A stretch of 62,206 nt of DNA from a virus. The position numbers and the translations under genes were made by a program. The stretch's first letter is position 1. Each line of letters begins with the position of its first letter. The stretch covers positions 1 through 62,206 of IMG/VR virus record IMGVR_UViG_3300013094_000050. One strand, 5' to 3'. The notes under the pieces were generated by a model. The model was given only the letters and a program-made list of their open reading frames with translations, was not told the DNA's origin and made no database searches. Positions 23,768 through 55,320 of this stretch are shown here, one piece after another.

Positions 23768-26700
23768 TTATCTTTGTCCAAAGAATTGTAGTGCAACCGG
23801 TGCGCCATCAATACCGCCTGTGAACAACATTTTACTACTTACATAAATTTGATTTCCTGTAGTAGTACTTATTGAATTTCCTGCAATATATACCTGGCCA
23901 GCAGTGATTGTATTTACGTTCAACGAACTTTGTCCACCACCAATTTGCGATGTAATGTATGCTTTAACTGCTTTTTGTGTTGGTACAATAGAATCGCTGT
24001 TAGCTGTGAAATATTGATCCGTACTAAATTGAGTAATTGTAGCAGAATTAACTCCTAAACTAACTGATCCAAGTGTCAAACTCTGCAATCCTGACAAATT
24101 AAACGCACTAGCGTTCAAACTAGCAGTACCAGTTGACTGTTGAACTCCGAACAAGTTACCAACGTTGAAGTTACCATCTTGGTCAGTACTTGTAAAGAAC
24201 ACACGACCGCCACCTGTAGCCAATGTTTGGTTGGCTGTTACAGCCTTAGTCGGGTCAACATTTGGATAATTTGTACTTGTAAATCCGCCAGTACCAATAT
24301 ACAAGAAGTCATGTCCTGTTAAACGTGAATTACTATACAATAATCTTGTTGTAATTAACGTATTATGTATCGGAGCTAGTAATGTACTCATCGAAGGATT
24401 AATTTGGAATGTTGCGGTATAATTACCCGCTGATCCTAATACGTTTGTAACTTGAACAAGTTTATACCATTGATTAGATCCAGTGATTGATGAGAAAGTT
24501 ACATTACATCCAGCTGTAGGTATTTGATATAATCCAGAAACATTAATATATGAACCTGTCTGATAAAAATCTCCATAGCCATCACCCGTTACACTTGCAG
24601 TTGCTGTAGTATTTCCAACACCACGATTAGTAAATGTAGGATTACCAAGTACACCATTACCAATTCTAGGTACTAGTGCTGCACTATTAACGTGGTTTGG
24701 ATCAGTAATTGTAGCAATTGGACTTGCAAAATATGTTATTCCTGTAATATTTGCTGTAGTTAATGGAATTGCCACTCCACCATACGATGTTGATACTTGG
24801 AAAGAAGTACTAGTAATACTGCCATTTACTACATAATAGTATACATTAGTAGATAAACCTCCTGCGCTTGTACCATTAAATACAATTTGTTGATTTGCAT
24901 ATAAATTAACAGTATTGTCAACAGTAATAACATTTGTTGATAATGTTGTAGCAGACACATTACCGCGAGCAAAACCACTTCCAGGTTCAATCATACGTAC
25001 TTCTGCAATAGCATTGCTTGTAACTTTTACACGACCTAATGGTGTTGCTCCAGTTTGAATTAAAGCTGCTGTAGTACTGTTAGTTTTAGATACAACAACC
25101 CATGTAGGATTAGATCCTAATGTTGTATTTGTTGGATTACCAAACGCAACAGCTTGCCAAGCAGATGTAGCTGGCATTACTTGCATTGCCCAATCCACCC
25201 CACTCCAGCTAGTTGCACAATAATTATAAGCACTTCCAGCAGAACCCGCAATTGCTGTCCATGAACCAGTAGCTGTTGTTAACGAAATAAGATTAGTATT
25301 AGCAATAGCATGTTGTTGTGTGTCTGCAATTGTTATAACGCCTGTTCCAGAATTAACACTAGCAATGTAATATGTTGTTCCAGAAACTAATCCACCTAAG
25401 TAACTACCAGCAGTTACTGATGCAGGAGGAGTTCCTAAATTAGTCAATGTTAAATTACTAGTTGAATTAGGTGTTGTAGCGATACTAATTGTAGTAGAAT
25501 TAACAATTCTGCTAATATAGTAAACTGTATTAGCAGTAATACCTCCACCTGTCGTTCCTGCAAACACAATTGATTCGTTAACAGCCATTCCAGAGCTACT
25601 ACCAATTTGTACTTGATCTAAAGTACCAGTAAGTGTTGCACTAGTAGTCACTTGACTAACTGATACAGAATAACTTGTTCCAGTAGTAGGTGTTCCTGTT
25701 GCACTTTGATTTAATGTGTAAGATCCGGCACCCCCTGACCCCGATCCAAAAGCAACAATATAAGTACCTGCTGTTACACTTGTACCAGTAATTGCCATAC
25801 CAATGCTGATTACACCAGTAGGAGTTCCGGTTACTGTTAGTGTTGTTGTACTAATAGTACCTGTAAATGTAACACTGTTTACTCCTAAGATAGTAGTACC
25901 AGCAGTAATTGTTCCGCTACTTGTTAAAATCATACCTATTTGGAATGATCCAGTTATTGTACCAGTTGGCGTAAACACTACACCTGCACCTGGACTTGCA
26001 GCACCATTGCCAATAATACCAGTTGTACTTGCAGTTGCATGTGATGTGGCACTTGCAGTTGTAGTTTGAGTAACAGCAGTCGGAGTAAACGCAGCTCCTA
26101 CTGCCAATCCAGTTGTACTACTTAATGTTGCTCCACTTGAACTTGTAGCTGTTACAGTCATAGAAGGTGCACTTGAAATTGCAGTGAACAATCCTTCACC
26201 GTAACTAATATTTTTCCAAGTTGTAATACCGATAGCATTTAACGGGTTGTTATTAGCTGCTACCCATGTATTATTTGTAATATTAGGACTACTTGTCCAT
26301 GCACTAGGTTGCCAGTTGACTGTATAGTACACTGTTCCGTCAGATGCCAATGCTATAAATCTTCCATTACCATAAGTTAAACTTACCCAAGTTTTACTTG
26401 GTAAAGTTCCGCCAACATACCATGTAGTAGGATCTGATCTCATCCACGATGTTAATGTACCGCCAATTGCACAGAACACACCACCGCCATATGCAACTGC
26501 GGTATATCCTGATGAATTAGAAGGAATATAACTTGATTGATTGACCCAAGATGCACTAGCTAATGAAGTTGCATTATACAACGATATTGCTACAGCAGAT
26601 CCGCTTCCACCTACTGCAATATAATAATTGTTTCCGTATGCAACAGAATTTAATGTAGTTTGACCAGTTGATGTACCAGATGACCATGCATTACCTAATG

Positions 26701-29700
26701 TAGAAGATACTGAATATGTAGCACTTATACTCGATACTGGGTTGTATGCTGTAGCATTTGTTGAAGTAGAAATTGCTAAAAATGCCGCGTATTGGTCAAT
26801 AATAGTTACAGTTGGAACTGAAGTATATCCAAAACCTGCTTGTGTTACAGTGAAACTGCTTATACCATTATTGGTTAAATTAGCAGTTGCTGCTGGTAAA
26901 CTACCTGCATATACTAATGTAACTCCGTATGTTCCGCTAGCACCTATACCGGTTGCAGATGAACCTGATTTTCCATAATATTGATTAGTGAAAGTAGGTG
27001 CAGTTGTACTAAATGTACCAGCAGATTGCGCTTGATAATAGTTAGTAACATTAGGAACAACTGTGACATCAACGTAATAATAGTACGCATTTGCTGTTGC
27101 TGTTCCAGATGACGTCCATGCTGTTGATGCAACAGGTGGACTAATAACTACTGTAGGATTTGTAAAATAATTTTGTCCCCATGTTACTGGAGTAATACTA
27201 CTTAATTCGCTTGTAATAGCGGTAACAGTTGGACTAGTATACAAACTTCCTGTAATGTTCATGTAAACATTAGTAACGCTTCCGTTTAATATTTCAGCAA
27301 CTGCTTGAGCACCTTGTCCGGTGCTATCAGTAATTACAATAGTAGGGGGTGATGAATAATTATTACCGCCCTGTACTACTGTAATTCCAACAATTTGTCC
27401 ATAATTAGCACCAGTGCCAATAATTGGTTGTAAGACGCAACCAGATCCGTTAAGGCCGCCGATTACCGCTGTAGCTGTAGCACCTTGGCCGCCACCATAC
27501 ACTACATTCCAATTTGTTGAGCTTGGTAGTACTCCGCCAGCTGTCCATGTTGTTCCATTAGTGCTATAAGAAGTTACTGTACCTGGATTTGCAGCTGTTA
27601 CAAAATTACCTGCGCCGTATGCAACAGATCCGTACTGGGCCGATGGTATTGTTGTAGCAGTGCTTGTAAATCCTGGAGAAGTATATGTTATTAATGGTTC
27701 AATAATATAAGTAGTTGTTGCGTCTAATACATTAGCTATTGTAGCACCTGGCACAGCTGCATCCCACCCTGCTTCATATACTTGAACTGATATAGTTCCT
27801 GTAATTGTTGTATTTGAAATATTTTGACTTACAGTAACAGTCCATGTAGAACCATTACTAGAACCGGAAATATTTGCACTAATATATGTATTAGCTGCAA
27901 CACCATTTCCAGTTAGCAACATACCAACATAAATTGTTCCAGAAGCTAAAGTTCCAACAGTTAATGTTGTACCAATAATAGTCGATGTAGACATAACAGC
28001 AGGTGTAGCACTTGTCGCACTCAACGTTGAGGCTGCTCCGCCACTTGAAGTTGACACTGAGAATGTTGTGCCGTTTGCTGACAAACTAGAACCAACTACA
28101 TAGTACACTGTCGAATATGTTAAATTGCCAATATTTGCACTAAGATAAATTGGTTGATTTGCATACATTGTATTAGTACTTGAAACAGTGAATACACTTG
28201 TTGTATTTGTAGTAATTGTTAACGGTACAAAGTTAGAGCGATACACATTAACAATTTTAGATGAAGCAGTATAGTTTAGAATATTTGCGTACTGGCCAAC
28301 GCCTGTTCCGCCTGTTAAGAAAATTCTCATTCCAATATAGGCACTACTCAAATTAGTATCAGAGTTAGCAATAGTAATTTGCCCAACTGTACCACTTTGT
28401 GCTGTGTTGCTAATAGTCAAATAATTACTACCGCCAACACCTTGGCCATTATTCATGTCAACTAAACGTGTTTCAAAGACAGCAAAATCACGAATTTCGT
28501 CTCCTATAGCGAATGCGTTATATCCAGCGCCGCTAATACTAGGATTATAGTTACTATATGCAGATCCTGCATTTTCGTATTCAATACGTAAAATTGCGTT
28601 TGTACCATCTGTAACTACATTAGTAATGTAAGCTGGATTAGCACGATTATTCAAGTTAGCATAGATAGGTGTTTCATATGAATCTACACCTTCAGCGATA
28701 ACCCCATATGTACCATACGAACTATTACCGTTAGTAGCACGAATACGACCACCGTATTCTGCCATATACCCGGAATAACCATAGTAAGAGAATACAGATA
28801 CACACTCAGTTAACGCTCCGTGTCCTGTACACCATATACCGATACCGTCTGATAACACTTGTGTATAGTCATTTGCAAGCATAGAACGATTACCGCCGTT
28901 ATGCAAAGCAGCATCAATCTTCATACCTACGCAGCCATTACCAAAAGTTGTAACGTTTTGTACGTAGCATGAACGAATGAATTCCCAAACGCTTGAATCG
29001 TTTGGTCCAAATCCTGGATCCAATGATGTGTATGTACCGCCTGTTGGTCGTTTTGTACCTAGCGCATTTGGAATTGTCAATGCACCTTGCATACCATTCA
29101 ATGTCATATTACGGATACCGGTACCATTTCTGACATGTATTAAATTAGTATACTGTGATCCGGTAACTGCCGACAAGTAAACTTGTGCATATCGAGTAGA
29201 TTTATAATTACCAGTTAATGATACATCGTGATGCAACGCATCGATATGATAACTAGCATCTCTTGTTGCTTTAGATACGATGATATAATAGTTAACACTC
29301 ATTGAACCAGATCCGCCTACTAATCCTAGTGTACTTTGAGTACCAGATCCAGGCTGAACAACTGAAACTGTAAATGTTGTAGAAGTAGGTGTAGTTAGTA
29401 CCCAATACACTGTATTAGTTAAAATGTTACTATCAAATATTGTACCGGTTAATCCAAACTGTACAGGATCTCCTACTAATAGATTATGAGGAGTGCTCGT
29501 TGTAATAGTACCATTACTATTAGTAGTTGTTACTACAGAACCGTAATTAGTTTGTGGCCACACAGCTGCTTCGGTAGCTAAGAAAGTTTTGTTAATACGT
29601 AATAATTCTGCACCAGTAATAGTAGATAATGTATTATTATAACCAGGATAGCTTTGATAAGAGTTTGTAGGATTACCCCAGACTTGACTCATTCCGTTTA

Positions 29701-32700
29701 CAATCTTGTAAGCAATACCTTGATTTGTATATAAACCAACAGATGCGTATGCTGTTAGGCCTGTTAAACTATTAGTAATAGTAAATGCTGTACCGCTCTT
29801 ATAGCTATTAGTTATAGTAATAGTAGTACCTGAAGCAGGGTATGTACCTTGCGTTACTGAATTAACCCAATACGTATCTCCATTTACTAAACCGCCTGCG
29901 GCATTAACAAACACATTCATAGCAGCATTAAGATTAAATGTTGCTCCAGTTATTGTTGAGCCTGTGGTAGTTGTTACAATTGGCAGGCCGCCCACTGTGG
30001 CAGATAATTGGAAAGCTGTTGTCGTTGGGCTACCAATTATATAAAAAGTCTGATTTACTATAGCACTTCCGTTAATTGTTCCAGTAGATAACGTACCATT
30101 AATTGTAACAGCTTGTCCAACTTTAGGAATAGAACCTAATGCTGTACATGCAAACACTCCAGATGTTGATGTAATAGTTACACCTGTAATTTGTGTAGTA
30201 GATGTTAGTGATACTGCTGATCCGCCCAATGTATTACTAATTTGAATAGTATTACTTGTTGGATTAATTACATAATAAATTTGATTAAACACTACAGTGC
30301 CTAACATAACTCCAGTAAAATAAACTTGTTGTCCTGCAACAATACCTAAACTGCTTGCTGTTGCTGCAAGAGTGATAGTATTAGTTGTTGAACCTGTAGT
30401 TGCAATAGCTGTAGTATTAATTGGGCTTGGTAACCCCGTGAATACTATTGGCATATTAATGTAAATTCCTGCATCACTACTTAGAGTAATCAAGTTAGTA
30501 CTTGTTGTAACTGCTGTGACAGGAATATTTGTACTTAATCCAGTAACATTAGTTGTTAATGCCAATCCGCCATAAATTCCGTATACCGTTGCTATCATAG
30601 CTCCAGTGTAACCAACTTTAATTGTCCATCCACTTGGTGTACCAGCTGTAGTTGTTATCGGTGACCCGTTAATACTTGCTGATAATACAAATGAAGTAGC
30701 TGTCGGAGTTCCTACAATGTAGTAAGTTGTAGGATTTGAATAACCTACAATCGAACCTGTTCCTACATTTGAACCTGATATTGTAACAGGTTGACCTACT
30801 CCTAATGCAACGCTAACAGCATTGAACGAAAATTGTCCATTAATACCAGTTATAGACACATTACTTAACGTATTTGCAGCTGTAATTGAAAGTACAGGAC
30901 CATTGTATGATGTGCTTAAGGTTAGTTGTGTTGTACTTAACACTTGTTTAATGTAATAAGTTCCAGCTATCAAATTACCAATTGAAGCTCCAGAGATAGT
31001 TACTGATAATCCAGGAACCATTCCGGTAGTTGTACCAAGTGTAATATAATTTGTAGTAGGAATTGCATTTTGTATAGATGTAGTTGTTGAACTAACAGAC
31101 GCACTATAATTTAACAACCATTGTGTCGGGCTAGCTGTTATAGTAATTCCAGTAATAGGACTGCCGCTTGATCCTCCAGTTGTAGTTGTAACTGGTGTCC
31201 CGTTTTGAGTTGTGGATAACTGAAATGTTGAAGTTGTTGGGTTACCAATTACATAATATATTGTTCCAGAAACATATCCAACGATGCTACCAGCAGAGAA
31301 TGTGCCAGAAATTGTAATTTGTTGACCAACAACAGGTGCAGTTATTAATGGCGTTGCTAAAGAAAATACTCCAGTATTACTAGAAATATATGCACCAGTA
31401 ATAGTTGTAGTTGCGCCTGAAATTATCGAAGTACCTGTTTGTATACCAGTACCACTCAATACCATACCAGGTATAATTATACCTGCAGATATACTATTAA
31501 TAGTTAATTGAGTTCCATTAATAGATCCTACAAATAAAGTATTATTAGTTGGTTGTCCTAAAATTTGTGCAACCATATCATCAATTGTAGTCTGGGTTTG
31601 CGCAACAAATCCTGCAGCTGCAATTACTTTTATTTTTTGTCCAATGAACCCAATAGCACCATATGTACTATCTGCATAATTTTGTTGTAGAGCTGCAACT
31701 AATGGGATTAATCTGTTATATGCACGACCATTTATAATACTATAGAAATTACTTCCAAATAGTACATCATAACTTAATGCTGTAACAACATATCCTGCGT
31801 CGCGATTTGTCAATGATAAACTTGGTCCTTCGTTCTGGAAGAAACGTGTTACCCAGGCTTGTGCATCGTTTTGTATTAAAGTTGCCTGTGCCTGAATAGC
31901 ATTAAATGATAATTGATTTAATGGTGTTGCAAAATTAAACGCACCTGATACAACAGGAGTAATTATAAACGTACCTGTAATTGTAGTGGTTGTTACAATA
32001 GTTTGGCTTACACTTACGGTCCAACTTGTTCCAGACCCAGCTGTAATATATGTGCCAGGCGCCACTCCAGCTGTAACAGTCATCTGTCCAGTGGCGGTTG
32101 TTAATGACGGTGCAGTTGTTGTGCCATACTGGTATAATGTCACAGTATTACCTGAGACTGCGTTAATGGTGTATGTTGTAGTTGTTAACCCACCAAATGC
32201 CGATTGTCCGCTGTATCCATAAGCTGTTGTAAATGTAATAGCCATTCCAGATGCGAGGCCAGTTGTTTGTAATAATGTTACTGCGCCAGTGCTGCCGTTG
32301 ACTGCGGTTGCCGTAGTTGTCAATGTTGTACCAGTGATACATTGTCCAATAGCAAGGCCAGTACCGCTAGCAACTGTTAACGTTGATCCGCTAATTGTAC
32401 CTGTCGTAGTACCGGTTGTTGGATTAGGAATGCCGTATGTTAACCAATAAATTATATCTGATACACGAGCTTGAACAAATGCTGACGCATTAGCACCTGC
32501 ATCTGTACCAATACCATTTTGTGTAGTAGAGTTTCCAACGCTGGCTGAAACTGCTGATCCTCTTACAATACTACCAATAATTGCTAATAATCTGTTTAAT
32601 GCAGATTGCACTCCTGTTAAGTAAGGAGCAACAATTAATGGAGAATTTAAGCTATAATATGCGCGACCGCAAATTAATGATTGATCGTTACATCCATATG

Positions 32701-35700
32701 TTAAGTCATATTGTAATGCATCAAGTATGTTGCTCAAATCGCGAACAGTTTCAGCTTGATTTGTAACTCCATACGATTGCCAAGTTGTACCACTTAACGT
32801 ATCATTCAGATAATTAATAATTTCGTCTTTAATAAACTGATAATTATTTTGAATTTGTGTTACCGCAGTACCAAATCCAACCAAATAATATGTATTATAT
32901 CCTGTAACTCGAGGAATATTAAATGCAGGTTCTTGTACAATACCAAGAGTAGTACCATAATTTGTATTATTTTGCACACCAGGAGTAATTGTCAATCCAT
33001 TTGCAAACATATTTTGTATGATTGCTGTATTATTAATTACTAAGTTTACTGCTGCTGGGTTACCAAAATCTCCAGTTTGTGCCGGTAATGTTCCTGCTTG
33101 TGTTGCTAATGCAGAAATATAATATGCAATATATTGAGTTGCACTTTGAGTTGCACTTAACTCAGTAGGAGATACTAAATGTTGTGCACTAGTTACATAC
33201 TTATAAAATGATCTGCCTGATACTAGCGTAAAATAATTAGAACCCAATAACATATCATAACTCAATGCATCAATTACTGTTCCAGCATCTCGATATGTTA
33301 ATGCAAGATTAGTAACATTATTAGGATATTGGGTAGCTACAAATGTTTGTATTTGTGTTTGTAAATAAGATCTTTGAGCTTGAATAGCGTTAAATGCAGT
33401 TAATACTGGTGCGGACACCCAAGTTGTACATGGTAAAACTGTTCCTGATAACCCAATACCGGTACTCAGGCTAGAACCGGTACCATTTGTACCGTTTACC
33501 CAGTTTATAATATTTCCAATCAATGCTTGTGTATAAGTTGCTGCATTTGTATATGTTCCAGATGTAACAACTGTTTGAGTTGCATTATTACCTGATGTTT
33601 TACTCCATGTAGTATTGCCATTTACAATATTAGGAATAATTGTTTGTAGTCGTGTCAATGCTGCAACAGATGCTGCTAATGTAGAAGCAGGAGTTAATGA
33701 TGCTACTCCTAACGAATAATATCCAATACCTTGTATTTGGCTTTGAGTATTACCGCCATAAATTATGTCGTATTGAATAGATTGTAGAATATATCCAAGA
33801 TCACGCAATGATTTCCCTTGATATTCAGCAGTTAACCCATTCCAACTAAATCCTGAACCAGTGTATCCGTTTAGATAATTTGCAATTTCAGTTTGCAAGA
33901 ATGTAATATTGGCAGCAATATTTGCCGCACCGTATCCGTATCCAGTAGTATCGCCAGTGGTATTACCTGTATAACCAGAAACTCCTAGTCCTGTAATTGA
34001 ATAGGCAGTATTTGTTAATGATGAGGTGTTATAGCCTGTTGGAGTTGTTGTAGTAAATGTTCCAATATTTGGAGTTGTTATACCGATAGTAAATGTTGCA
34101 CCTGTAGTAGTTGTTCCACCGATAGTCAATGGATTAGTGCTACTAAGAGCGTTTTGATAGGAAGCATATAACGTTGCAGTTGTTGCTGTACTAGTTGCTC
34201 CGGTGTAATAAATTGCATTAATTGTAGAACCAATTGCGGATATAGCTGTCCCGCCAATAGTCAGATTACCTGTAATTGCTGTACCTGAACTTGTTCTTGT
34301 TATAACAATGGCAGTACCTGCAGGTAACGCTACAGTTGTAGTCGAATATGATATACCAGTAGTACTATTGTTAGTAACAGATCCTAACGTTGTTTGAGAA
34401 ATTATTGTAGAATTTGGATTTCCAAATACAGGGCTATATGTTAGCCCGTTAGCTAAAATACCTTGTAATAACGTATTGTTATTAACAATAGATCCTACTG
34501 TTGCAGAATTTGCAATGTTGATAGTTGATCCAGATGCTCCAATTGGAGAACCTGCTGCATACCCTGCAACTTGTGTTCCTATATAGTTAATAGATTGCTG
34601 AGTAACAGCTAATTCAGGACCGCCTACTAAAGTTTCAGCAGAAGAAACAAGTCGATAAAACGCTCTTCCTGAAATCATACTATAATAATTAGATCCTAAT
34701 AATAAATCGTATGATAGTGCATCAACAATTGTTCCTGCATCGCGATAAGTTAACGCTAAATTTGAAACAACACTACCATAATTAGTCGAAACCCAATTTT
34801 TAACCCATGATTGAATTGCAACTTTATTTGCTTGAATATTATTAAATGCTGACAAATTAGAAGAAGGAACCCAAGAATAACAAGGTCGGATAGTACCCAC
34901 TGGATTAGAACTAAAACTATTTCCAGTACCATTTGTACCGTTTACCCAGTTAATAACTAATCCAACTAGAGCAGCTGCGTATACACCTGCGTTTGTTTGT
35001 CCTGCTGTACCTGTTGTAACTTGTGATGCAGTATTACCAGAAGTTTTTGTCCAACCTCCTGTATTAGCAGTAACAATATAAGGTATAATTGTCTGAATAC
35101 GAGTTAACATTCCAACTGTCGCGGCTTGGAATCCTGAAGTAATACTAGCAGAACCTAATGAATAATATGCTAAACCATCAATTTCACTTTGTGTGTTTCC
35201 ACCGTAAGTCATATCATAAATTATAGAATTTAACAAGTATCCAACATCACGCAATGTATAACCTTGATTAGCTGAACTCATTCCACTCCAAACTGATGAA
35301 TAAGCTGATGCCATATAGGCTGCAATTTCAGTTTGAATAAACGCAATATTTTGTGTAATTTGTGCAACGCCGGCGTCATAACCAACTGTTGATCCTGTTA
35401 CATTTCCTGAACAAGCATACGCAATATTTGATAATGTAGTTCCAAATCCTGTTGGAGTAGTTAAAGTGTATGTTCCTGTATTAGGAACTGTTACACTACC
35501 TCCGGTATACGTGATTGTAGATGTGCCTGCTCCTGGTAGTGCACTTAAACCGTTTGCTAAAATTGTTTGTATTAATGTTACATTAGTAGAAACAGTTTGT
35601 GTAAATGAAGAAAAAGGATTAGTTCCTAAATATTCTTGTACGACACTATTTGTTGATGTTGATATTACCGGAACATTGCTTGCGATTGCAGGCAATAACC

Positions 35701-38578
35701 ACTGTATACGTTGTAGTGCAGACACTGTTCTTGTTCTATCATTAGCTAAGTACGGTTGTGCAGTTGCTGCTTGAATAATAGTACTACGTAATTCATCTCC
35801 AACTAGTGCCGTATCTTGAGGAAGCACCATAGGGCCGTACTCGTTATATGTTCCAGTTTTTACATAAATGCTAGTATGCGGACGTTGTAACTGGGGTATA
35901 CCAGAATATGTACCTGCTGTTAATGCATTTGTAATTATAGCTAAAAGATTTTGTGCAATTGATATTGTTCCTACTTCTATATTTGCAGTAGGAACTTCAG
36001 TAATATTTTGTACTGCTTGTTGGTTAACTGGCAACCCTTGAATTGATTGATATATCACTCCAGGAACTGTATTTGATAACACAAGCGGTAATAGTGTATT
36101 TTGTAAGTATTGCAAACTAGCAATCCATACTGTCATTTCATAGCCAGCATTTGTTGTAATATAACTTGTTAATGTTGCAAAAAATGCCTCAGTAGCGGTA
36201 GTACAATATAAATTACCACCGTGCGTTAAATCAAATACTATAGCATCTACAATAGTACCTGCATCTCTTTCTGCTTTGAATTGATTGTAAACAAACGATG
36301 CTGTTCCGGTACTTATACTGTTAGCAGTTATAGGTAAAATTGACCCAGATTTATAGCTAGTACTAATAGTAAAGGAATTAGCAGAGAATGTATTAACATA
36401 ATATGTTGTTCCTGGAACAATTTGTGTTACAATTGCCGTAGAAAACGTAATTGGCATTCCATAGTACATGTTAGCTGTTGTTGTCTGGCTAGTTGTACTA
36501 GATCCGCCAACAATAAATGTGTTTCCTGATGCGCCAGTTCCGATAACATTGAAAGAATATTGTGTTAAAATCCAGTTATTAACTTCTTTTAACATAAATT
36601 GCTTGTTAACTTTTAATGCAAGTCCGGCATTAGTGTTCAAATATCCGTCTTCAATTTGTTTACAAGCAAATAATACGGTAGCCCATGGTTTATCTAAACT
36701 TAAACCTTGGCTATTACCTGTTACATCGGATCCAGATGGGGATACATATACAACATTTTGCAATAATCCATAATAAGACCAAGATGGAATAGATCCGTTT
36801 ACACGAAGAATTTGGCCGTCTGTACCAATAGGTAACCTTGTGGCACCACTATTACCGTAGTATACAATATCTCCAGTAGTAGTTAATACACCACTATCTG
36901 CACCGCTAGCTAATAAATTCCAGAAACTACCAGTCGAATCACTAATAGGATCGTTTGTTCCTGCTAATCCTATGTGCAATGATACACAAATATAACTGCT
37001 ATTACCATAATATACAGCATCTCCAACTAAGTAACTCATTCCAGATTGCCATGTAACAGCATAACCAGATACAATTGTAACTGTTGAGATTACTCCACCA
37101 GAATTTGACGCTACTTTAACGGTAAGGTCATTTGCAGGACTAATTCCTCCTAAATTTGTACCTAATATTTTTAATGTATCGTTATTAGAATAACCAGCAC
37201 CTCCGGCACCTGCATGAACTACGACTGAATACGATGTGCCAGTTAATGTGACATCAAATAATGCTGTACCATTTCCTGCACCACTTACTAAGTTTACACT
37301 AGAAACAGCATTATATGTAGTTGAAGGAGCAGCATTCCAACGAATTCCTGCATTTAATTGCCCCCAGTTGACATTTGAGCTGGACGGTTCTGAATTTGTA
37401 TTATCGGCTAGTGCTGTATAAGTAAATCCACCTAATGTTACTATTTGACCAATTCTGTAGGCAGTCGACGATACCCATGCTCCTGCATATACTAAACCAG
37501 TTGTAAAAATTTGCCAATATCCAGTTGAAGTACTTGGAACTTGTCCACTATTGTTTTGTATGGCAGTATATGTATATCCGCCATAGGTAACTAAATCTCC
37601 AACAGCGTAGTTAGTTGTATTTGACCAAGAATTTTCAAACTCTAATCCATTTACAAAAATTGTAAAGTCAGTTGTATTAATTGTTAAACCAGAAGATGTA
37701 TGAGGTGTAGTACAAATCCATAAATCGGGACCATACTTTACAATATCATTTAACTTATAACGTGTTGCAGTTACCCACGCACCTAGATAATTTAATCCAG
37801 GATTAAACGATGACCAAAAACTTTGATTTGCTTCTAATCCTAGTGTAGCGGTGCTTGCTGATACGTGTGCAGTATTACACACATACGTAATGCCACCATA
37901 AGAAATAAAATCATTGGCTTTATATCGTGTACTAGTTGTCCATGCTCCTAACCAATTAAGATTTGAAGCATAAGTTGTCCAATATGTTTGTTCTGCTTCT
38001 AATCCGGATGTTCCAGTAACTGTTCCCAATGTTGAAACAGTATAAGTACCAGTTAATGCAAATGTAAGTTGTGAACTAGTGCAAGTAACAACAGTAAAAG
38101 TTGTATTAACTAAATTCACAGTACCAGATGTCGATGTAGGAGTAAATCCTGATAATGTTATGGTTTCTCCTACAAGGAAAGGAGGATTTCCGTTAAGTGT
38201 TGTAGCATATGTTAATGTTGCTACTCCAGCCGATACTGTAAATCCAGTAGCAGTTATTGTAGTAGACGCTGAACAACTCATGTGTGCAGTGTTACATAGA
38301 TAAACAACATTTCCGTAAAGTACTAAATCATTAATATTATAATATGTGCTTGTAGACCAATTGCCTTTCCATGCCTGACCGTCAGCTAATAAGTTCCATT
38401 TAGTTACACCAGCACCTCCAGCTAAGTCAGTAGCAAATGTTGATGAACTTGTATTGTTTAATACACAAATATAAGCTCTTCCGCCGTTAGTTACTACGTC
38501 ATCGACTACATACGAATATCCAGATTGCCATGCACCTTGATAAACAAACTTAATTCTACCTAATTTGAATTCTGCCAT
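23768..38578 (-). CDS. Giant modular adhesin, 4936 residues
   Basis: One uninterrupted frame. Order from the N-terminus: seven short Trp/Tyr modules resembling carbohydrate-binding module family 5/12 (about residues 14-550; pattern W-x4-Y-x4-D-x-V-x-Y-G-x3-Y); a small Ig-like cassette inserted after the second; a beta-helix opening with YVSPSGSD near 606; helical modules centred on a RD-x-G motif near 769, 1109, 1279, 1592, 1762, 1944, 2259 and 3106; a long array of about 70-residue beta domains (about 2340-2900); a conserved beta-helix core with LHNGGNRSMLANDYTQVLSDG (about 3143-3313); repeats with YGNG/YGGG and a W (about 3650-4130); more beta domains; and a C-terminal virion-type end with NSDSIVPTQKAVKAYI. 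The C-terminus, core and N-terminus are paralogous to the 3268-residue neighbour. Late promoter GATAAATA and AGAGGA ribosome site precede it. Role: host recognition, possibly glycan binding. Confidence 0.85.
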   Translation of the reverse strand: MAEFKLGRIKFVYQGAWQSGYSYVVDDVVTNGGRAYICVLNNTSSSTFATDLAGGAGVTKWNLLADGQAWKGNWSTSTYYNINDLVLYGNVVYLCNTAHMSCSASTTITATGFTVSAGVATLTYATTLNGNPPFLVGETITLSGFTPTSTSGTVNLVNTTFTVVTCTSSQLTFALTGTYTVSTLGTVTGTSGLEAEQTYWTTYASNLNWLGAWTTSTRYKANDFISYGGITYVCNTAHVSASTATLGLEANQSFWSSFNPGLNYLGAWVTATRYKLNDIVKYGPDLWICTTPHTSSGLTINTTDFTIFVNGLEFENSWSNTTNYAVGDLVTYGGYTYTAIQNNSGQVPSTSTGYWQIFTTGLVYAGAWVSSTAYRIGQIVTLGGFTYTALADNTNSEPSSSNVNWGQLNAGIRWNAAPSTTYNAVSSVNLVSGAGNGTALFDVTLTGTSYSVVVHAGAGGAGYSNNDTLKILGTNLGGISPANDLTVKVASNSGGVISTVTIVSGYAVTWQSGMSYLVGDAVYYGNSSYICVSLHIGLAGTNDPISDSTGSFWNLLASGADSGVLTTTGDIVYYGNSGATRLPIGTDGQILRVNGSIPSWSYYGLLQNVVYVSPSGSDVTGNSQGLSLDKPWATVLFACKQIEDGYLNTNAGLALKVNKQFMLKEVNNWILTQYSFNVIGTGASGNTFIVGGSSTTSQTTTANMYYGMPITFSTAIVTQIVPGTTYYVNTFSANSFTISTSYKSGSILPITANSISTGTASFVYNQFKAERDAGTIVDAIVFDLTHGGNLYCTTATEAFFATLTSYITTNAGYEMTVWIASLQYLQNTLLPLVLSNTVPGVIYQSIQGLPVNQQAVQNITEVPTANIEVGTISIAQNLLAIITNALTAGTYSGIPQLQRPHTSIYVKTGTYNEYGPMVLPQDTALVGDELRSTIIQAATAQPYLANDRTRTVSALQRIQWLLPAIASNVPVISTSTNSVVQEYLGTNPFSSFTQTVSTNVTLIQTILANGLSALPGAGTSTITYTGGSVTVPNTGTYTLTTPTGFGTTLSNIAYACSGNVTGSTVGYDAGVAQITQNIAFIQTEIAAYMASAYSSVWSGMSSANQGYTLRDVGYLLNSIIYDMTYGGNTQSEIDGLAYYSLGSASITSGFQAATVGMLTRIQTIIPYIVTANTGGWTKTSGNTASQVTTGTAGQTNAGVYAAALVGLVINWVNGTNGTGNSFSSNPVGTIRPCYSWVPSSNLSAFNNIQANKVAIQSWVKNWVSTNYGSVVSNLALTYRDAGTIVDALSYDLLLGSNYYSMISGRAFYRLVSSAETLVGGPELAVTQQSINYIGTQVAGYAAGSPIGASGSTINIANSATVGSIVNNNTLLQGILANGLTYSPVFGNPNSTIISQTTLGSVTNNSTTGISYSTTTVALPAGTAIVITRTSSGTAITGNLTIGGTAISAIGSTINAIYYTGATSTATTATLYASYQNALSSTNPLTIGGTTTTGATFTIGITTPNIGTFTTTTPTGYNTSSLTNTAYSITGLGVSGYTGNTTGDTTGYGYGAANIAANITFLQTEIANYLNGYTGSGFSWNGLTAEYQGKSLRDLGYILQSIQYDIIYGGNTQSQIQGIGYYSLGVASLTPASTLAASVAALTRLQTIIPNIVNGNTTWSKTSGNNATQTVVTSGTYTNAATYTQALIGNIINWVNGTNGTGSSLSTGIGLSGTVLPCTTWVSAPVLTAFNAIQAQRSYLQTQIQTFVATQYPNNVTNLALTYRDAGTVIDALSYDMLLGSNYFTLVSGRSFYKYVTSAQHLVSPTELSATQSATQYIAYYISALATQAGTLPAQTGDFGNPAAVNLVINNTAIIQNMFANGLTITPGVQNNTNYGTTLGIVQEPAFNIPRVTGYNTYYLVGFGTAVTQIQNNYQFIKDEIINYLNDTLSGTTWQSYGVTNQAETVRDLSNILDALQYDLTYGCNDQSLICGRAYYSLNSPLIVAPYLTGVQSALNRLLAIIGSIVRGSAVSASVGNSTTQNGIGTDAGANASAFVQARVSDIIYWLTYGIPNPTTGTTTGTISGSTLTVASGTGLAIGQCITGTTLTTTATAVNGSTGAVTLLQTTGLASGMAITFTTAYGYSGQSAFGGLTTTTYTINAVSGNTVTLYQYGTTTAPSLTTATGQMTVTAGVAPGTYITAGSGTSWTVSVSQTIVTTTTITGTFIITPVVSGAFNFATPLNQLSFNAIQAQATLIQNDAQAWVTRFFQNEGPSLSLTNRDAGYVVTALSYDVLFGSNFYSIINGRAYNRLIPLVAALQQNYADSTYGAIGFIGQKIKVIAAAGFVAQTQTTIDDMVAQILGQPTNNTLFVGSINGTQLTINSISAGIIIPGMVLSGTGIQTGTSIISGATTTITGAYISSNTGVFSLATPLITAPVVGQQITISGTFSAGSIVGYVSGTIYYVIGNPTTSTFQLSTTQNGTPVTTTTGGSSGSPITGITITASPTQWLLNYSASVSSTTTSIQNAIPTTNYITLGTTTGMVPGLSVTISGASIGNLIAGTYYIKQVLSTTQLTLSTSYNGPVLSITAANTLSNVSITGINGQFSFNAVSVALGVGQPVTISGSNVGTGSIVGYSNPTTYYIVGTPTATSFVLSASINGSPITTTAGTPSGWTIKVGYTGAMIATVYGIYGGLALTTNVTGLSTNIPVTAVTTSTNLITLSSDAGIYINMPIVFTGLPSPINTTAIATTGSTTNTITLAATASSLGIVAGQQVYFTGVMLGTVVFNQIYYVINPTSNTIQISNTLGGSAVSLTSTTQITGVTITSTSGVFACTALGSIPKVGQAVTINGTLSTGTINGSAIVNQTFYIIGSPTTTAFQLSATVGGLPIVTTTTGSTITGATFNLNAAMNVFVNAAGGLVNGDTYWVNSVTQGTYPASGTTITITNSYKSGTAFTITNSLTGLTAYASVGLYTNQGIAYKIVNGMSQVWGNPTNSYQSYPGYNNTLSTITGAELLRINKTFLATEAAVWPQTNYGSVVTTTNSNGTITTSTPHNLLVGDPVQFGLTGTIFDSNILTNTVYWVLTTPTSTTFTVSVVQPGSGTQSTLGLVGGSGSMSVNYYIIVSKATRDASYHIDALHHDVSLTGNYKSTRYAQVYLSAVTGSQYTNLIHVRNGTGIRNMTLNGMQGALTIPNALGTKRPTGGTYTSLDPGFGPNDSSVWEFIRSCYVQNVTTFGNGCVGMKIDAALHNGGNRSMLANDYTQVLSDGIGIWCTGHGALTECVSVFSYYGYSGYMAEYGGRIRATNGNSSYGTYGVIAEGVDSYETPIYANLNNRANPAYITNVVTDGTNAILRIEYENAGSAYSNYNPSISGAGYNAFAIGDEIRDFAVFETRLVDMNNGQGVGGSNYLTISNTAQSGTVGQITIANSDTNLSSAYIGMRIFLTGGTGVGQYANILNYTASSKIVNVYRSNFVPLTITTNTTSVFTVSSTNTMYANQPIYLSANIGNLTYSTVYYVVGSSLSANGTTFSVSTSSGGAASTLSATSATPAVMSTSTIIGTTLTVGTLASGTIYVGMLLTGNGVAANTYISANISGSSNGSTWTVTVSQNISNTTITGTISVQVYEAGWDAAVPGATIANVLDATTTYIIEPLITYTSPGFTSTATTIPSAQYGSVAYGAGNFVTAANPGTVTSYSTNGTTWTAGGVLPSSTNWNVVYGGGQGATATAVIGGLNGSGCVLQPIIGTGANYGQIVGITVVQGGNNYSSPPTIVITDSTGQGAQAVAEILNGSVTNVYMNITGSLYTSPTVTAITSELSSITPVTWGQNYFTNPTVVISPPVASTAWTSSGTATANAYYYYVDVTVVPNVTNYYQAQSAGTFSTTAPTFTNQYYGKSGSSATGIGASGTYGVTLVYAGSLPAATANLTNNGISSFTVTQAGFGYTSVPTVTIIDQYAAFLAISTSTNATAYNPVSSISATYSVSSTLGNAWSSGTSTGQTTLNSVAYGNNYYIAVGGSGSAVAISLYNATSLASASWVNQSSYIPSNSSGYTAVAYGGGVFCAIGGTLTSWMRSDPTTWYVGGTLPSKTWVSLTYGNGRFIALASDGTVYYTVNWQPSAWTSSPNITNNTWVAANNNPLNAIGITTWKNISYGEGLFTAISSAPSMTVTATSSSGATLSSTTGLAVGAAFTPTAVTQTTTASATSHATASTTGIIGNGAASPGAGVVFTPTGTITGSFQIGMILTSSGTITAGTTILGVNSVTFTGTISTTTLTVTGTPTGVISIGMAITGTSVTAGTYIVAFGSGSGGAGSYTLNQSATGTPTTGTSYSVSVSQVTTSATLTGTLDQVQIGSSSGMAVNESIVFAGTTGGGITANTVYYISRIVNSTTISIATTPNSTSNLTLTNLGTPPASVTAGSYLGGLVSGTTYYIASVNSGTGVITIADTQQHAIANTNLISLTTATGSWTAIAGSAGSAYNYCATSWSGVDWAMQVMPATSAWQAVAFGNPTNTTLGSNPTWVVVSKTNSTTAALIQTGATPLGRVKVTSNAIAEVRMIEPGSGFARGNVSATTLSTNVITVDNTVNLYANQQIVFNGTSAGGLSTNVYYYVVNGSITSTSFQVSTSYGGVAIPLTTANITGITYFASPIATITDPNHVNSAALVPRIGNGVLGNPTFTNRGVGNTTATASVTGDGYGDFYQTGSYINVSGLYQIPTAGCNVTFSSITGSNQWYKLVQVTNVLGSAGNYTATFQINPSMSTLLAPIHNTLITTRLLYSNSRLTGHDFLYIGTGGFTSTNYPNVDPTKAVTANQTLATGGGRVFFTSTDQDGNFNVGNLFGVQQSTGTASLNASAFNLSGLQSLTLGSVSLGVNSATITQFSTDQYFTANSDSIVPTQKAVKAYITSQIGGGQSSLNVNTITAGQVYIAGNSISTTTGNQIYVSSKMLFTGGIDGAPVALQFFGQR

Positions 38579-48447: not shown

Positions 48448-48831
48448 TTAAGTTGTTGAGATAATTTGTGACGCACTATAAATGTATGTTTGATTAATAC
48501 GTACAGTTAATTCACCTTGCGAATCTATGTAATAAAAACAGTTTTTATTATCCCAACGATATTGGTCAAATACTAAATTTGGGTATGGACGACTGTGGTC
48601 TGTCGCAAGTCTTCCGTCGAAGAAATCAACACCATATTCAAAACTTTCAAAGTTATTTGCACCTGCACCTGGATTATTTATAGTTAATGTTCCTGTGCTA
48701 GTTAATTGATCTGTTTTATAAAAGTATAAAGTGCCGTCAGGATCAGATCTTGATAATGCGTAAAAATATCTCGGATTACCTTCACCTAACAAGTCATTCA
48801 AATTAAATTCATTACCAGCATAATATGACAT
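48448..48831 (-). CDS. Small conserved virion-cluster protein
   Basis: 127 residues: SYYAGNEFNLNDLLGEGNPRYFYALSR at the start, then DPDGTLYFYKTDQL near 30 and a middle with FESFEYGVDFFDGR near 61. It has many aromatic residues and an even spread of strands. I recognise the type from fibre clusters of aquatic T4-like phages but know no function. It lies between the 110-residue beta-sandwich gene and the 3268-residue gene, with gaps of 11 and 12 bases, in one polycistronic unit. Possibly an attachment subunit for the giant fibres. Confidence 0.6.
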   Translation of the reverse strand: MSYYAGNEFNLNDLLGEGNPRYFYALSRSDPDGTLYFYKTDQLTSTGTLTINNPGAGANNFESFEYGVDFFDGRLATDHSRPYPNLVFDQYRWDNKNCFYYIDSQGELTVRINQTYIYSASQIISTT

Positions 48832-49178: not shown

Positions 49179-52100
49179 TTATCCTAATGATAGCACTATA
49201 CCAAGTGCAATATCTGTTGCTTGTGATGTTGTTACACCACTTGCGGCTCCTGCCACACTGGCCCAACTAGTGCCATTATAAATTTCCACATACATGTAGT
49301 TTGGATCATTATTAAAACGCATCATTCCTGTTTCTGTATACTGAAACGCTGGATAATTTGTTGTATTTCCTACTGGTATTACAACACCGTATGATCCTCC
49401 AATTTGAACATATCCTGATCCTGCTGCCTCTGTAACAACAGTAGAATATGGTACATTCTGCGGTGGAGTAACATAGTATGTTCCTAAACCATTTGTAGTT
49501 CCTGAAACTTGTGCTGTTATAATTGTACCGGTTGTTATACCAGATCCACTAATTGTATTTCCAATTGTTACTGATCCAGAAATAACCGATGTCACTGTTA
49601 ATAATACAGGAGTACTAGTAACAGTTTCGTTAGTTATTGCTGAAACATAGTTAATATTTATAGTCCACGAACTTGACGAACTTGTTCCAGTGCCTGAAAT
49701 ATTTGATACAATATAAGTACCTGGAGTAATTCCTGATCCACTTAATGAATCGCCTACTGCTAAACCAGTACCGCTGGTACCAAATGGTGACAAATTACTG
49801 TATGAAACATTTCCGCTACCGGCTTGAGATACTGTTTCATTGTTACTAGTATCAATTAAATCGTTAGCACTATTACTTGCTAATAACAATATTGCTGTTC
49901 CAGTAACAGCAGTCAATGGGCCTGTAGGAACAGTTATTGTTGTAGTTGTAGGATCATACACTGACGTTCCTATAACTATTCGTAAGTTAGTTAATTCTCC
50001 TGAAAATAAATTTGTTCCAGATAAAGATGCGCCGATAGTAGTTGTGTTGCTACCATAATTTAGATTATTAGTAATTGCACCCGACGTTGAACGAACTCCA
50101 TTGATGAATACAGTTTCAATTAACGAACTATTACGTACAATCACTAAGTGATTCCAAGTATTTGTAGCAAACGACACTGCGTAACTGTTTGTTGTACCAC
50201 CGACATATTGCACATCTACTGAAGACGAAGATATTGATAAAGAATACCCGCCAGCTCCGGCTCCTAGAATAGTTTGAGTACCAGTTGAAGATGTGTAGAA
50301 GAAAAATTCAATAGTGTAAGCAATACCGCCGACACCGAATCCAGGAGACATATTCAAATAGTTTGTTGAACCATCAAATGAAATACTTCCTCCGAATAAA
50401 CTTCCAGGAGGGCTGCTAACAGTTAATATATTTCCAGAAATTGATCCTGTAAATGTATTTGAAGGTTGTGATGCAATTGTACCTTGAAAAGAAGAATTAC
50501 TTGCACTAGTATTTGTAAACAATGTTACAGCGTTGGTTGCTGTATTTGTAATACTGTTACCGTTGAATAACAAATTACCAACTTGCACACCTCCACTTCC
50601 AGATGTTGTAAAATTGATATCAGTATTTGAAGACAATGCACTGATGTTGTTACCGGTAATACTTAGTTGGCTAGTTTCAAAATTTGTTGCATACAATTTT
50701 GTACTATCAATAGTTGCTGTTAATGTATTTCCAGCATAAAAACTAAGAACGTTGTTTCCAGCTCCGGGAGAACTTTCTGGAGTAATATATGTCTGTCCGT
50801 TTACACTTTGTACTCCACCTAAGTTTGTCCAGTATCCGTTAGAATATCCTTCATAACGATTATGATCGGTATTATAGCGAATCATACCATTTGCCGGTGA
50901 ACTTGGTTCTTGCAAAGTAGTTCCCGCTGGCACTTGTAAACTTTGATTACTATTAATTATAACACTTCCGGTACCTTGTGGAGTTAATGTAATATCGGAA
51001 TTAGTAATTGTCGACGCAATGGTATTACTTGTGACACTTAATCCTTCTATCACAACACTTCCTGTACCATTACCAGTTAAAATTAAATTGCTATTTGTAG
51101 TACTTGTAGTAATAGTGCTGGGACTACCTGGAGGTGCTATTATAATATTACCAATAGTCCATTCGCCGGATACACTTAAATCACCGTTTACAGTAACATT
51201 TCCGCTAGTGCTGAAATTTCCAGTTTGTGTAAAATCACCAGTCTGTGTCAGTGCACCGGTAATACCAACTGCATGTAACGTGCTAGTTCCGGTAACACTT
51301 AATGTGCCACCAACAGTGGCATTTCCATCTAATGTAGCATTACTAGTAATCTCGACTTGCTGACCGCTGTATGCAGCTATTTGTAAGTTAGTTCCAGATT
51401 GTGTTCCAGTAATTGTACTACCACTAATAGTTACATCAGGTAATGTTAATGTACCTGTGCTAGTGATAGCACCAGAATTAATTGTACCAGTTGTACTGAA
51501 ATTACCACTTGTTTGTGTGAAATCTCCAGTTTGTGTCAGTGCCCCAGTAATACCAACTGCATGCAATGTACTAGTTCCAGTGACACTTAATGTACCACCA
51601 ACAGTAGTATTTCCATCTAATGTAGCATCGCTAGTAATCTCAACTTGTTGACCACTATACGGAGTTAATGTTAAATTAGTAGCAGTGGTAGTCCCAGTAA
51701 TTGTACTACCGCTAATAGTTACATCAGGTAATGTTAATGTACCTGTACTAGTGATAGCACCAGAATTAATTGTACCAGTTGTACTGAAATTACCACTTGT
51801 TTGTGTGAAATCACCAGTTTGTGTTAATGTACCAGTGATGCCAACTGCGTGTAATGTACTAGTTCCAGTGACACTTAATGTACCACCAACAGTAGTATTT
51901 CCATCTAACGTAGCATCACTAGTAATTTCAACAGCTTTTCCGCTATACGGAGTTAATGTTAAATTAGTAGCAGTGGTAGTTCCAGTAATTGTACTACCAC
52001 TAATAGTTACATCAGGTAATGTTAGTGTACCAGTCGATGTAATCGCACCAGAATTAATTGTACCGGTTGTACTGAAATTACCACTTGTTTGTGTGAAATC

Positions 52101-55100
52101 TCCAGTTTGTGTTAATGTACCAGTAATACCAACTGCTTGTAATGATGTTGTACCAGATGTAACTGTTAAATTATTACTAATTGTTACATTTTGATCGACT
52201 TGAACATTGTTGCTAGGAATATATACACGACCTGTTCCATTTGGTACTAATTGTAAATCTGAATTGCTAGATGCGGTACTTATAGTGTTACTATTAACTG
52301 TAACATTTCCGATATAAGCAGAATTAAAATATGCATTATTCCAATTTAGTGAACTTGTACCTAAATCATACGCTGAAGTCGTTGCAGGAATTAAATCACT
52401 GTTAATACCAGCAACAAAGTTAACAGTATCGGAAGTTTGATTACCAATAGTAATATTTCCGCCGATAGTAGTGTCTCCAGTTACACTTAAATTACCGGTT
52501 ATATATGTATTATTTTGTAAATTAATATGGCCACTTGCGGCAGTAACATTTATATCTCCTGTTACGCTTTGTATTGTATTACCGCTAATTTTAATATTGC
52601 CAGTATCTATTTCTCCTGGTAATATACTAGTTGTATGTACACCATCTGTAAATGTTACTGCTGTAGCAGTAGTAATCGAAAGAGCTTGGCCGTTGAAAGT
52701 AACTATTCCAGTTTTTTGATTTACTGAAAAATATTGACCTACGTTAAATTGTCCAGCATTGTCAACAGCCGTATAATAAATTTCAGCACCATTGACTTGA
52801 GTGATTTCGTTAGCAACAATTTGAGTCGACGGATCATCTGTAGATAATAGTCCAGATCCAATATAAGAAAAATTATGGCTAACTAGATATGCTTTAACGC
52901 CTTGGCCGTCGCCCCATATACCATAATTGCCAAAACTAAATGCAGACCCAATGATACGCATTTCGACACCGAAATCGCTATAGTCGGCAAAATTAATAAT
53001 GCTTGCAGTACCACCTGCACTTGTTCTTAAATTTTGCTGAGTATATCCGTCGTCTACAAATACAGTTGATCCGTTGGTGCCATCAAAATGCAACATTAAT
53101 ACTGTATTGGTATCTGAAGTTAATGCAACCGAAGACGGAGTAAAGTTTGTAGTATATTTTGCAACACCTTTTTCAATTCTTAAATCGTCGATGTATCCGC
53201 CCAACGGAAGAGTTGCGTTATAACGTGCACCGATAACTAACGGACCTTGAATATATGTATTATTGTCAGTATACGTACTACCGCTTTGTGTTCCATTAAC
53301 AAACATTTTGGTGCTTGTGCCAGATTTGGCTATAGCAATATGTGTCCAAGTGTTCAGAGGGACAGCGGCAGAACCAGTAACCATTGTATTGCCCGCACCC
53401 CACGCTATAATTGGAACATACGTAGCAGACAAATAAACTACTAAACCTACATCGGTACTAGTGTTTCTTAAATCAGCAAGATATTGAATAGCGCCGGCGT
53501 TGCCAGTTCTGTAGACCCACATTTCAATAGTCCAAGCACTTGAACCAAACGCAAAATCTACATTAGTTGGAATTGTAGCGTAATCAGTTGTGCCATTCAA
53601 TGCTAAACTTGCTGTTCCAAATTTCTTAACACTAGCTGATAGGTTGGCACCGCCCTGTGCGTATACAGTTTTGCCAGGGCGATCTGTAATTGTTTGGAAG
53701 CCTAGATGTCTTCCATTTATGTATACGTATTGTCCGCTGATACTGCTAATAGTACCAGATGCTAAAACAGTCACACCGTCTGTATCGTAGTATGTTAATG
53801 TATTACCTACTGCCCATGTTCCAATTTGAGAATTAATTCTTAATTTTGTTCGGCCTGCTCCTGCAAACCCAGGTGTACTTGAATAAAGATAAACAGCTCT
53901 GTTAGCAAAGTATGTAAAACTATTAACCCATTCCATACGAACACCGTTAGTTGCTGTTATAGCATCTTGATTAGGTATAAAAAATGTAACGCCATGGAAT
54001 AACATACTAGCACGTAGACTAGCTGAATTAACTACACTACCATCAGCAAACACACCTTTACCAGCATCACCTTGATTAAATCCGTAAGGATCTCCTGAAC
54101 TGGTTACACTACCTCTAGTGATAATTGTTAGATTTCTAATGTAGGGGCTGCGTGTTGTTGTTAAAAAGTTATTAGCAAATCTGAATCCATAACCAGTATT
54201 TGCACCGCTATTGTATAAAAATCCTGTTAATGTGAAATCTTCAAGAGTAGTTTCTCCGTTTAATAAAAACGCATCATTAGATTTAGTACCGGCAGTTGGT
54301 TGAATAATAACTGCTCGAATTCCAGTTCCACGTAATGTAACACCTTCGGGAACTGTTAATGGGAATATTTCTGAATAAGTTCCTGGATACACATAAACAG
54401 TAGTTCCGCTAGTAGCAACACTCAATGCATGTGCAATAGTTAAAAATGGATTATTTTCATGCACTCCAGCATTACTATCACTACCAGTAGTTGATACGTA
54501 TATAATATTACCTTGAGGCAATACCAAATTAATACCATTAGCAGTAATAGTAGATGTTGTAAGACTACTGGTGTTTACTGTGTTTACATAAGCATTTGCC
54601 CATGCTAAACTGTTTGATCCTAAATCATAGTGGTTGTTTTGATTTGGAATGATACTGCTAGCAACTTCTGCATCAAAAGTAACTGTGTCGGTACTAGCAT
54701 TACCTAATGTTATATTACCATCTGCGGTAATATTGCCAGTAGCATGTAAATCTCCAGTTACTAGAACATTGCTGTTTAAGTTAATTACACCAGAACCGTT
54801 AGCGGTAATATTAATAGCACCATTAGTGTTAGTTGCACTAATTGTATTTCCAGTTAAACTAAGATTGCCAATGTCAGCAGTGCCTTGATACACTACAGCG
54901 CTTGAACCATTGGGTGTTAAATTAATTGTTGAATTTGTACTGGAAATTGTACTACCAGAAATTGTAAAAGTTCCGATAGTTGAAGATGTACTTGCGTATA
55001 AATTGGTAGTACGAGTAGTGCCGTTTATATCTAAATCATATTGTGGTGATGCATTTTTAATGCCCACGCGGCTGTTTACAACATCTAAGTAAAGTAAGTT

Positions 55101-55178: not shown

Positions 55179-55320
55179 TTACGCTCCCGTATACCCCGTG
55201 TTTCACGGTTAACCTAGTTTGGGATTGCCCCGCATCCTTTCGGCTCTTTGTCGGTTTACCACAGTTTAATATCGTAAAAACTTGGTCAGTCTTTACAGTA
55301 TTAGTATTTAGCTGTTTTGG
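55179..55320 (-). other. 142-base untranslated leader of the 1999-residue fibre gene
   Basis: The longest gene-free stretch here. It contains a CTAAATA promoter at its distal end and then a GC-richer part than the surrounding genes. This includes CCGTG-AAA-CACGG (plus 55196-55208), a five-pair stem with a three-base loop, close to the start codon. Other leaders in this window are 0-35 bases. No tRNA shape or known riboswitch was recognised. Confidence 0.6.
55305..55311 (-). promoter_or_regulatory. Late promoter upstream of the 1999-residue gene, CTAAATA
   Basis: CTAAATA on the minus strand, directly after the end of the 1442-residue gene. It gives a leader of about 120 bases, much longer than others in the window. 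Confidence 0.5.

Follow-up and report, generated by a model that had tools for sequence, protein, structure and literature searches.

Virions of S-CREM2 contain a long tail fiber of 4971 aa, gp85, which was detected by mass spectrometry with 286 unique peptides (PMC10665884), and huge phages encode proteins of up to 7694 aa, some of which are tentatively structural (PMC7162821). Several cyanophages encode giant proteins annotated as "short tail fiber," i.e., S-RSM4_214 (4482 aa), Syn1_032 (4017 aa), S-CAM1 SXBG_00073 (3693 aa), and S-PM2p091 (3338 aa). The tail fibers of the phrog_9851 family, including P-SSM2 gp301, S-SSM7 gp113, and those of S-CAM1/S-CAM3 and the Pelagibacter phage Mosig EXVC030M, are 1090 to 1477 aa long.

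Here, we analyze P0001, a minus-strand gene (23768..38578) encoding 4936 aa in the window, an IMG/VR virus contig of 62,206 bases. Based on the frame itself, its phrog_9851 match, an orthologue, and dN/dS, we consider it likely that P0001 is a giant phrog_9851 tail fiber of a jumbo-like myophage, in which a fixed core is interrupted at two insertion sites, with a phycobiliprotein-like insert 1 and a propeller-containing insert 2.

P0001 shares its gene order with the described phrog_9851 fibers, along with the N-terminal motif, the CBM5/12 array, the core anchors, and the C-terminal domain; however, these fibers lack the helical phycobiliprotein-like modules and are present as a single gene copy rather than the two found here. 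The cyanophage "short tail fiber" giants are comparable to P0001 in length and contain the same helical module, but they have a different core, without the CBM5/12 start and with another type of beta-helix, and a nearly invariant cysteine in the module. S-CREM2 gp85, seen in virions by mass spectrometry (PMC10665884), falls in the same size class as P0001, but homology between the two is not detectable by sequence. The best match of P0001 in a viral structure library is A0A6J7WHK8 ("ChiC_BD domain containing protein," uncultured Caudovirales phage; 37% identity), an entry in fragments that is named solely for its chitin-binding domain. A first-pass annotation had measured P0001 against gp34 of phage T4. 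This was the wrong yardstick, given the S-CREM2 fiber, cultured cyanophage fibers of 3.3 to 4.5 kaa, and relatives of up to 5446 aa; moreover, PHROG, Pfam, and PDB returned no match of the gp34 kind, and a T4-type fiber identity was dropped. The great size of P0001 is by itself not new, and the phrog_9851 family was already known. In the open-access literature searched, we found no description of such a fiber architecture with two insertion sites or of homology between the module and phycobiliproteins; database entries with PF00502 in phage fibers may well exist.

Results

An intact reading frame under purifying selection

The P0001 frame runs from an ATG to a stop over 4936 codons, or 23.8% of the window, in agreement with the first-pass annotation. 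The longest open run comprises 4938 codons compared to at most 204 in shuffles of the window, and the GC content by codon position is even and coding-like along the whole gene (0.38–0.42, 0.49–0.61, and 0.14–0.22). An orthologue of 5309 aa, encoded on the independent contig L012, is collinear with P0001 and ∼73% identical to it end to end, with the chief length differences near residues 3951 and 4259. Between the two proteins, dN/dS is ∼0.17 overall and <0.5 in each 250-codon block, values that are approximate because dS is near 1.2. It is 0.07 at the C terminus (last block), highest at residues 4251–4500 (0.45), and, this one weaker block apart, 0.1–0.26 over insert 1 and the greater part of insert 2. 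In all, we identified 71 complete related ORFs of 2634 to 5446 aa, including some near-duplicates. The P0001 ORF is thus unbroken and conserved, and purifying selection acts along its full length; the collinear orthologue, the related ORFs, and this selection show that the frame is real rather than an assembly artifact.

A fixed core and two insertion sites

P0001 matches the phrog_9851 tail fiber profile in five stretches (E 4.9e-139); the neighboring paralogue P0002 also belongs to this family by profile match. P0001 has the N-terminal motif, the CBM5/12 array, the beta-helix anchors, and the C-terminal domain of this family, and occupies the same position within the fiber cassette. Using three anchors, we segmented 55 giant and 7 short proteins. 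The beta-helix block measures 199–203 aa in every giant, and the stretch past the C-terminal anchor 56 aa in most of the proteins. By contrast, the inserts vary in length, with 161–2210 aa for insert 1 (2200 aa in P0001) and 908–2907 aa for insert 2 (1395 aa in P0001). A constant core, consisting of the CBM5/12 array, the ∼200-aa beta-helix block, and the C-terminal domain and amounting to only ∼1100 aa, is therefore combined with two inserts that account for the extra length. The first-pass annotation proposed that such length must be strongly selected; purifying selection is seen throughout the sequence, but this does not amount to selection on length itself; around a constant core, the sizes of inserts 1 and 2 differ more than tenfold and threefold from relative to relative.

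All features of P0001 lie on the minus strand. Residues 1–560 (36899..38578) comprise the start MAEFKLGRIKF, also found in marine homologues, and the CBM5/12 array (PF02839, seven stretches, E 1.3e-29), which is the sole Pfam match of P0001. A linker and a first beta-helix coil follow (residues 575–640; 36659..36856), with anchors that align with P0002 and marine homologues. Further coils precede insert 1 (YVKTGTYNE...LVGDELR, residues 895–945; 35744..35896), and this anchor is kept in 62/62 proteins. Insert 1 (residues 946–3144; 29147..35743), delimited by the length variation in relatives, contains helical modules in a/b pairs and Thr-rich beta modules and has no PHROG match. The constant beta-helix block (residues 3145–3345; 28544..29146) separates it from insert 2 (residues 3346–4740; 24359..28543). 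The conserved C-terminal domain (residues 4741–4936; 23771..24358), with a dN/dS of 0.07 in the last block, has its anchor in 62/62 proteins.

Because no fold was obtained with AlphaFold for the beta-helix half of P0001 in isolation, the beta-helix assignment rests on homology: the core of the S-CAM3 homologue matches a pectate-lyase-like Pfam family just over the cut-off. The beta-helix block has no cellular relatives among 84,980 species genomes. Within insert 2, repeats of the type W..V.YGNG.FVA...S.DG..W span approximately residues 3560–4140 (26159..27901, boundaries approximate). AlphaFold models this region with a pLDDT of mostly 80–90, and Foldseek matches it to several propellers with a probability of 1.0 (E 1e-4 to 6e-4). 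As modeled, insert 2 contains beta-propeller repeats. The parts listed in the first-pass annotation were thus all recovered, i.e., binding modules (CBM_5_12), beta-helix (through S-CAM3), helical modules, and beta arrays including the propeller repeats; the structure prediction by segment that it called for was confident for the helical domains and the propeller region but not for the isolated beta-helix half. The inserts are rich in Thr, Ser, and Gly with little charge. When not corrected for composition, BLAST of four giant proteins against one another produced long alignments of low identity; these arose from this shared bias and were discarded.

Phycobiliprotein-like helical modules

Residues 590–1390 were modeled (pLDDT 80) as all-helical domains between beta coils. 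An HMM built from cyanophage modules only found all eight modules of P0001 with a total E of 6.3e-56, compared to 0.01 for reversed sequences and 0.013 or worse for short marine homologues. Module 1 (residues 711–824; 36107..36448; domain E 2.4e-9), which is helical in the model, lies ahead of insert 1. Modules 2 (a1, residues 1054–1187; 35018..35419; E 6.6e-11), 3 (b1, residues 1221–1325; 34604..34918; E 9.9e-7), 4 (a2, residues 1537–1670; 33569..33970; E 5.4e-8), 5 (b2, residues 1712–1824; 33107..33445; E 7.1e-6), 6 (a3, residues 1881–2001; 32576..32938; E 7e-11), and 7 (b3, residues 2194–2305; 31664..31999; E 6.1e-7) alternate between the two types, and the partial module 8 (residues 3093–3153; 29120..29302; E 4.7e-6) follows. 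Identity is 57% between a1 and a2 and 45% between b1 and b2, compared to 70–84% between P0001 modules and their orthologous copies in L012. Because the paralogous copies are less alike than the orthologous ones, the duplications predate the split between P0001 and L012. Across relatives, proteins with a longer insert 1 tend to have more modules (Spearman 0.82). The module is present in 344 phage records, at up to nine places per genome, and all but one of these are named Synechococcus phage, Prochlorococcus phage, or cyanophage.

Several lines of evidence connect these modules to phycobiliproteins. A profile of 82 family modules searched against the whole PDB gave phycocyanin alpha as the first match (E 4.1e-5); of the 41 matches, the top 32 were phycobiliproteins. 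When the profile was built from 25 modules of cyanophages, either cultured or sequenced, all 60 listed matches were phycobiliproteins (best E 2.7e-5), and with a profile from the P0001 and L012 modules only, 12/12 were (best E 0.0027). The Pfam family PF00502 (Phycobilisome) was detected in the S-RSM4 fiber with 60.5 bits against a cut-off of 22.2 (E 2.4e-16) and in the DSL-LC03 fiber (E 3.4e-6), and among the 82 modules it was the most frequent Pfam family (11, next family 3). The P0001 modules score below the PF00502 gathering cut-off. Foldseek searches of the PDB returned many phycobiliproteins with a probability of up to 0.99 and a TM score of 0.62 to 1b8d_B, but with E values of 0.2–0.8, none significant alone. 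Judged by these profiles, the helical modules of insert 1, eight copies in P0001, are distant homologues of phycobiliproteins but not members of PF00502 by its curated cut-off. Phycocyanin, phycoerythrin, and the fiber modules have in common the profile similarity, a helical structure (modeled for the fiber modules), and the invariant Arg and Asp of the pigment site; in P0001, however, the modules are inserted as fiber repeats and lack the bilin cysteine.

The bilin-attachment cysteine

In phycobiliproteins, the pigment is attached at Cys84, beside Arg86 and Asp87. In profile alignments, the C-x-R-D motif of the module aligns on this bilin site, and its Arg and Asp are invariant in the alignment of 82 modules. 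Of 295 family modules, 167 have the cysteine, compared to 0/8 in P0001. In 21 of the 43 proteins with at least four modules it is all-or-none, compared to a mean of 2.6 in shuffles, a pattern to which sequence relatedness contributes. Examples from family loci L012–L091 have it in 12/12, 11/11, and 8/8 modules or in 0/8, 0/6, and 0/5.

The cpeT bilin-lyase gene lies just upstream of a module-bearing giant fiber gene in S-RSM4 (L104, 2465–13788), S-CAM1 (L106, 1912–10771), and Syn1 (L107, 3216–11398). Only 66 records match S-RSM4 cpeT, compared to the 344 with the module.

Gene neighborhood

The next gene upstream of P0001 encodes the paralogous fiber P0002 (38629..48435, minus strand; 3268 aa), identified by phrog_9851, the segmentation, and the module HMM, with an insert 1 of 161 aa, an insert 2 of 1934 aa, and one helical module. 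The first-pass annotation mentioned neither this paralogue nor the minus-strand orientation of P0001. On the same strand follow a small virion-type gene (48448..48831; 127 aa; phrog_8997), positioned in the conserved fiber cassette as in S-SSM7 and P-SSM2, and two baseplate-wedge-like genes, P0003 (1999 aa) and P0004 (1442 aa; together 49179..59649; phrog_13163). Downstream of P0001 are small tail genes, a minor coat gene, and a carbamoyltransferase gene, and then neck, sheath, and tube genes. The gene order is that of P-SSM2, S-SSM7, and S-CAM1/3, in which a single fiber of 1090–1477 aa takes the place of the two giants. PA5oct-type jumbo Pseudomonas phages have the closest counterparts (47–52%) of the sheath in the window and of the terminase in relatives, whereas the carbamoyltransferase (58–60%) and the fiber cassette are closest to cyanophages; from these similarities, the genome looks like a mosaic. 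We considered a cyanobacterial host for the P0001 family, which is unsupported: psbA is present in 0/16 and cpeT in 0/11 related records, which may be fragments.

Other features of the region include a LamG/concanavalin-A-like lectin domain in P0003 (49179–55178; residues 528–669; PF13385, E 1.3e-28) and a 288-base unit (96 residues) repeated ∼3 times in tandem in each of the neighboring baseplate-wedge-like genes (51223–52144 and 56594–57441), with equal period. A 142-base leader before the 1999-aa gene (55179–55320) has a somewhat more favorable fold than its shuffles (z −1.8) and no Rfam match; Rfam searches found no RNA in the window. The tail sheath (4492–7779) is unusually long at 1095 aa, and its ends match jumbo phage sheaths while its middle is unaligned.

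Discussion

The first-pass description of P0001 as a phage adhesin agrees with a tail-fiber-family protein that is encoded beside sheath, tube, and baseplate genes and is under purifying selection along its full length; its presence in the virion as a fiber is inferred. We suggest that P0001, like other beta-helix fibers, is probably trimeric, and that one conserved end holds the fiber, or spike, on the tail. The beta-helix would form the shaft, from which the inserts may branch off as side modules. The CBM5/12 modules near the N terminus and the propellers are the likely surface-binding parts, with the propellers as candidate receptor-binding heads, while the helical modules, having lost the bilin cysteine in P0001, would most likely be structural or packing units. 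The inserts may grow and shrink by duplication and exchange of modules as the core stays fixed.

Two alternatives concern the protein as a whole. P0001 could be a baseplate or tail-spike component near the tail, its inserts packing into a bulky mass, and not a long, extended fiber; the neighboring genes match baseplate-wedge families, cyanophage relatives of the module are annotated as short tail fiber or baseplate proteins, and the core alone would be short. The family is annotated as tail fiber, and CBM5/12 modules and propellers fit surface binding; however, neither bears on geometry, and we regard this alternative as unlikely but worth keeping in mind. The long frame might also be an assembly artifact or a chance fusion of separate genes, as the internal repeats of P0001 could in principle mislead assembly. 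With a collinear orthologue in another contig, 71 complete relatives, and purifying selection throughout, the chance of this is negligible.

For the inserts, it could be argued that the helical modules are unrelated to phycobiliproteins and have converged on a helix motif that is short and common (R-D, aromatic, G). The matched region is mostly 50–80 residues around this single motif, the Foldseek E values exceed 0.1, and individual P0001 modules remain under the Pfam cut-off. Nevertheless, searches of the whole PDB with three different module sets yield almost nothing but phycobiliproteins, PF00502 far exceeds its cut-off in S-RSM4, and the module cysteine aligns with the bilin site, making convergence quite improbable. 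The inserts could also be functionless expansions of repeats, selfish or decaying, as might be suggested by their widely varying length and their low-charge, Thr/Ser/Gly-rich composition, but this is very hard to reconcile with the low dN/dS in insert 1 and most of insert 2, even considering the one weaker block, and we give it very little weight.

Returning to P0001 as a giant tail fiber with phycobiliprotein-like modules, pigmented fibers are possible in some cyanophages but unlikely for P0001 itself. A more far-reaching scenario is that cyanophages recruited a host phycobiliprotein as a repeating tail-fiber module, that lineages keeping the cysteine carry a covalent bilin attached by phage CpeT or host lyases, and that the phage of the window obtained the module after loss of the pigment site; as a whole, we consider this scenario a long shot. 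If the modules are indeed homologous to phycobiliproteins, their pigment-binding cysteine, kept in some proteins and missing in others, would provide a direct test of whether any phage fibers are pigmented and of the target of phage CpeT. Altogether, P0001 illustrates a route to a fiber of ∼5000 residues, in which a fixed core has two expansion sites filled by repeated modules, and which is widespread in environmental jumbo-like phages. If the homology is true, a photosynthesis protein has been reused as virion building material.
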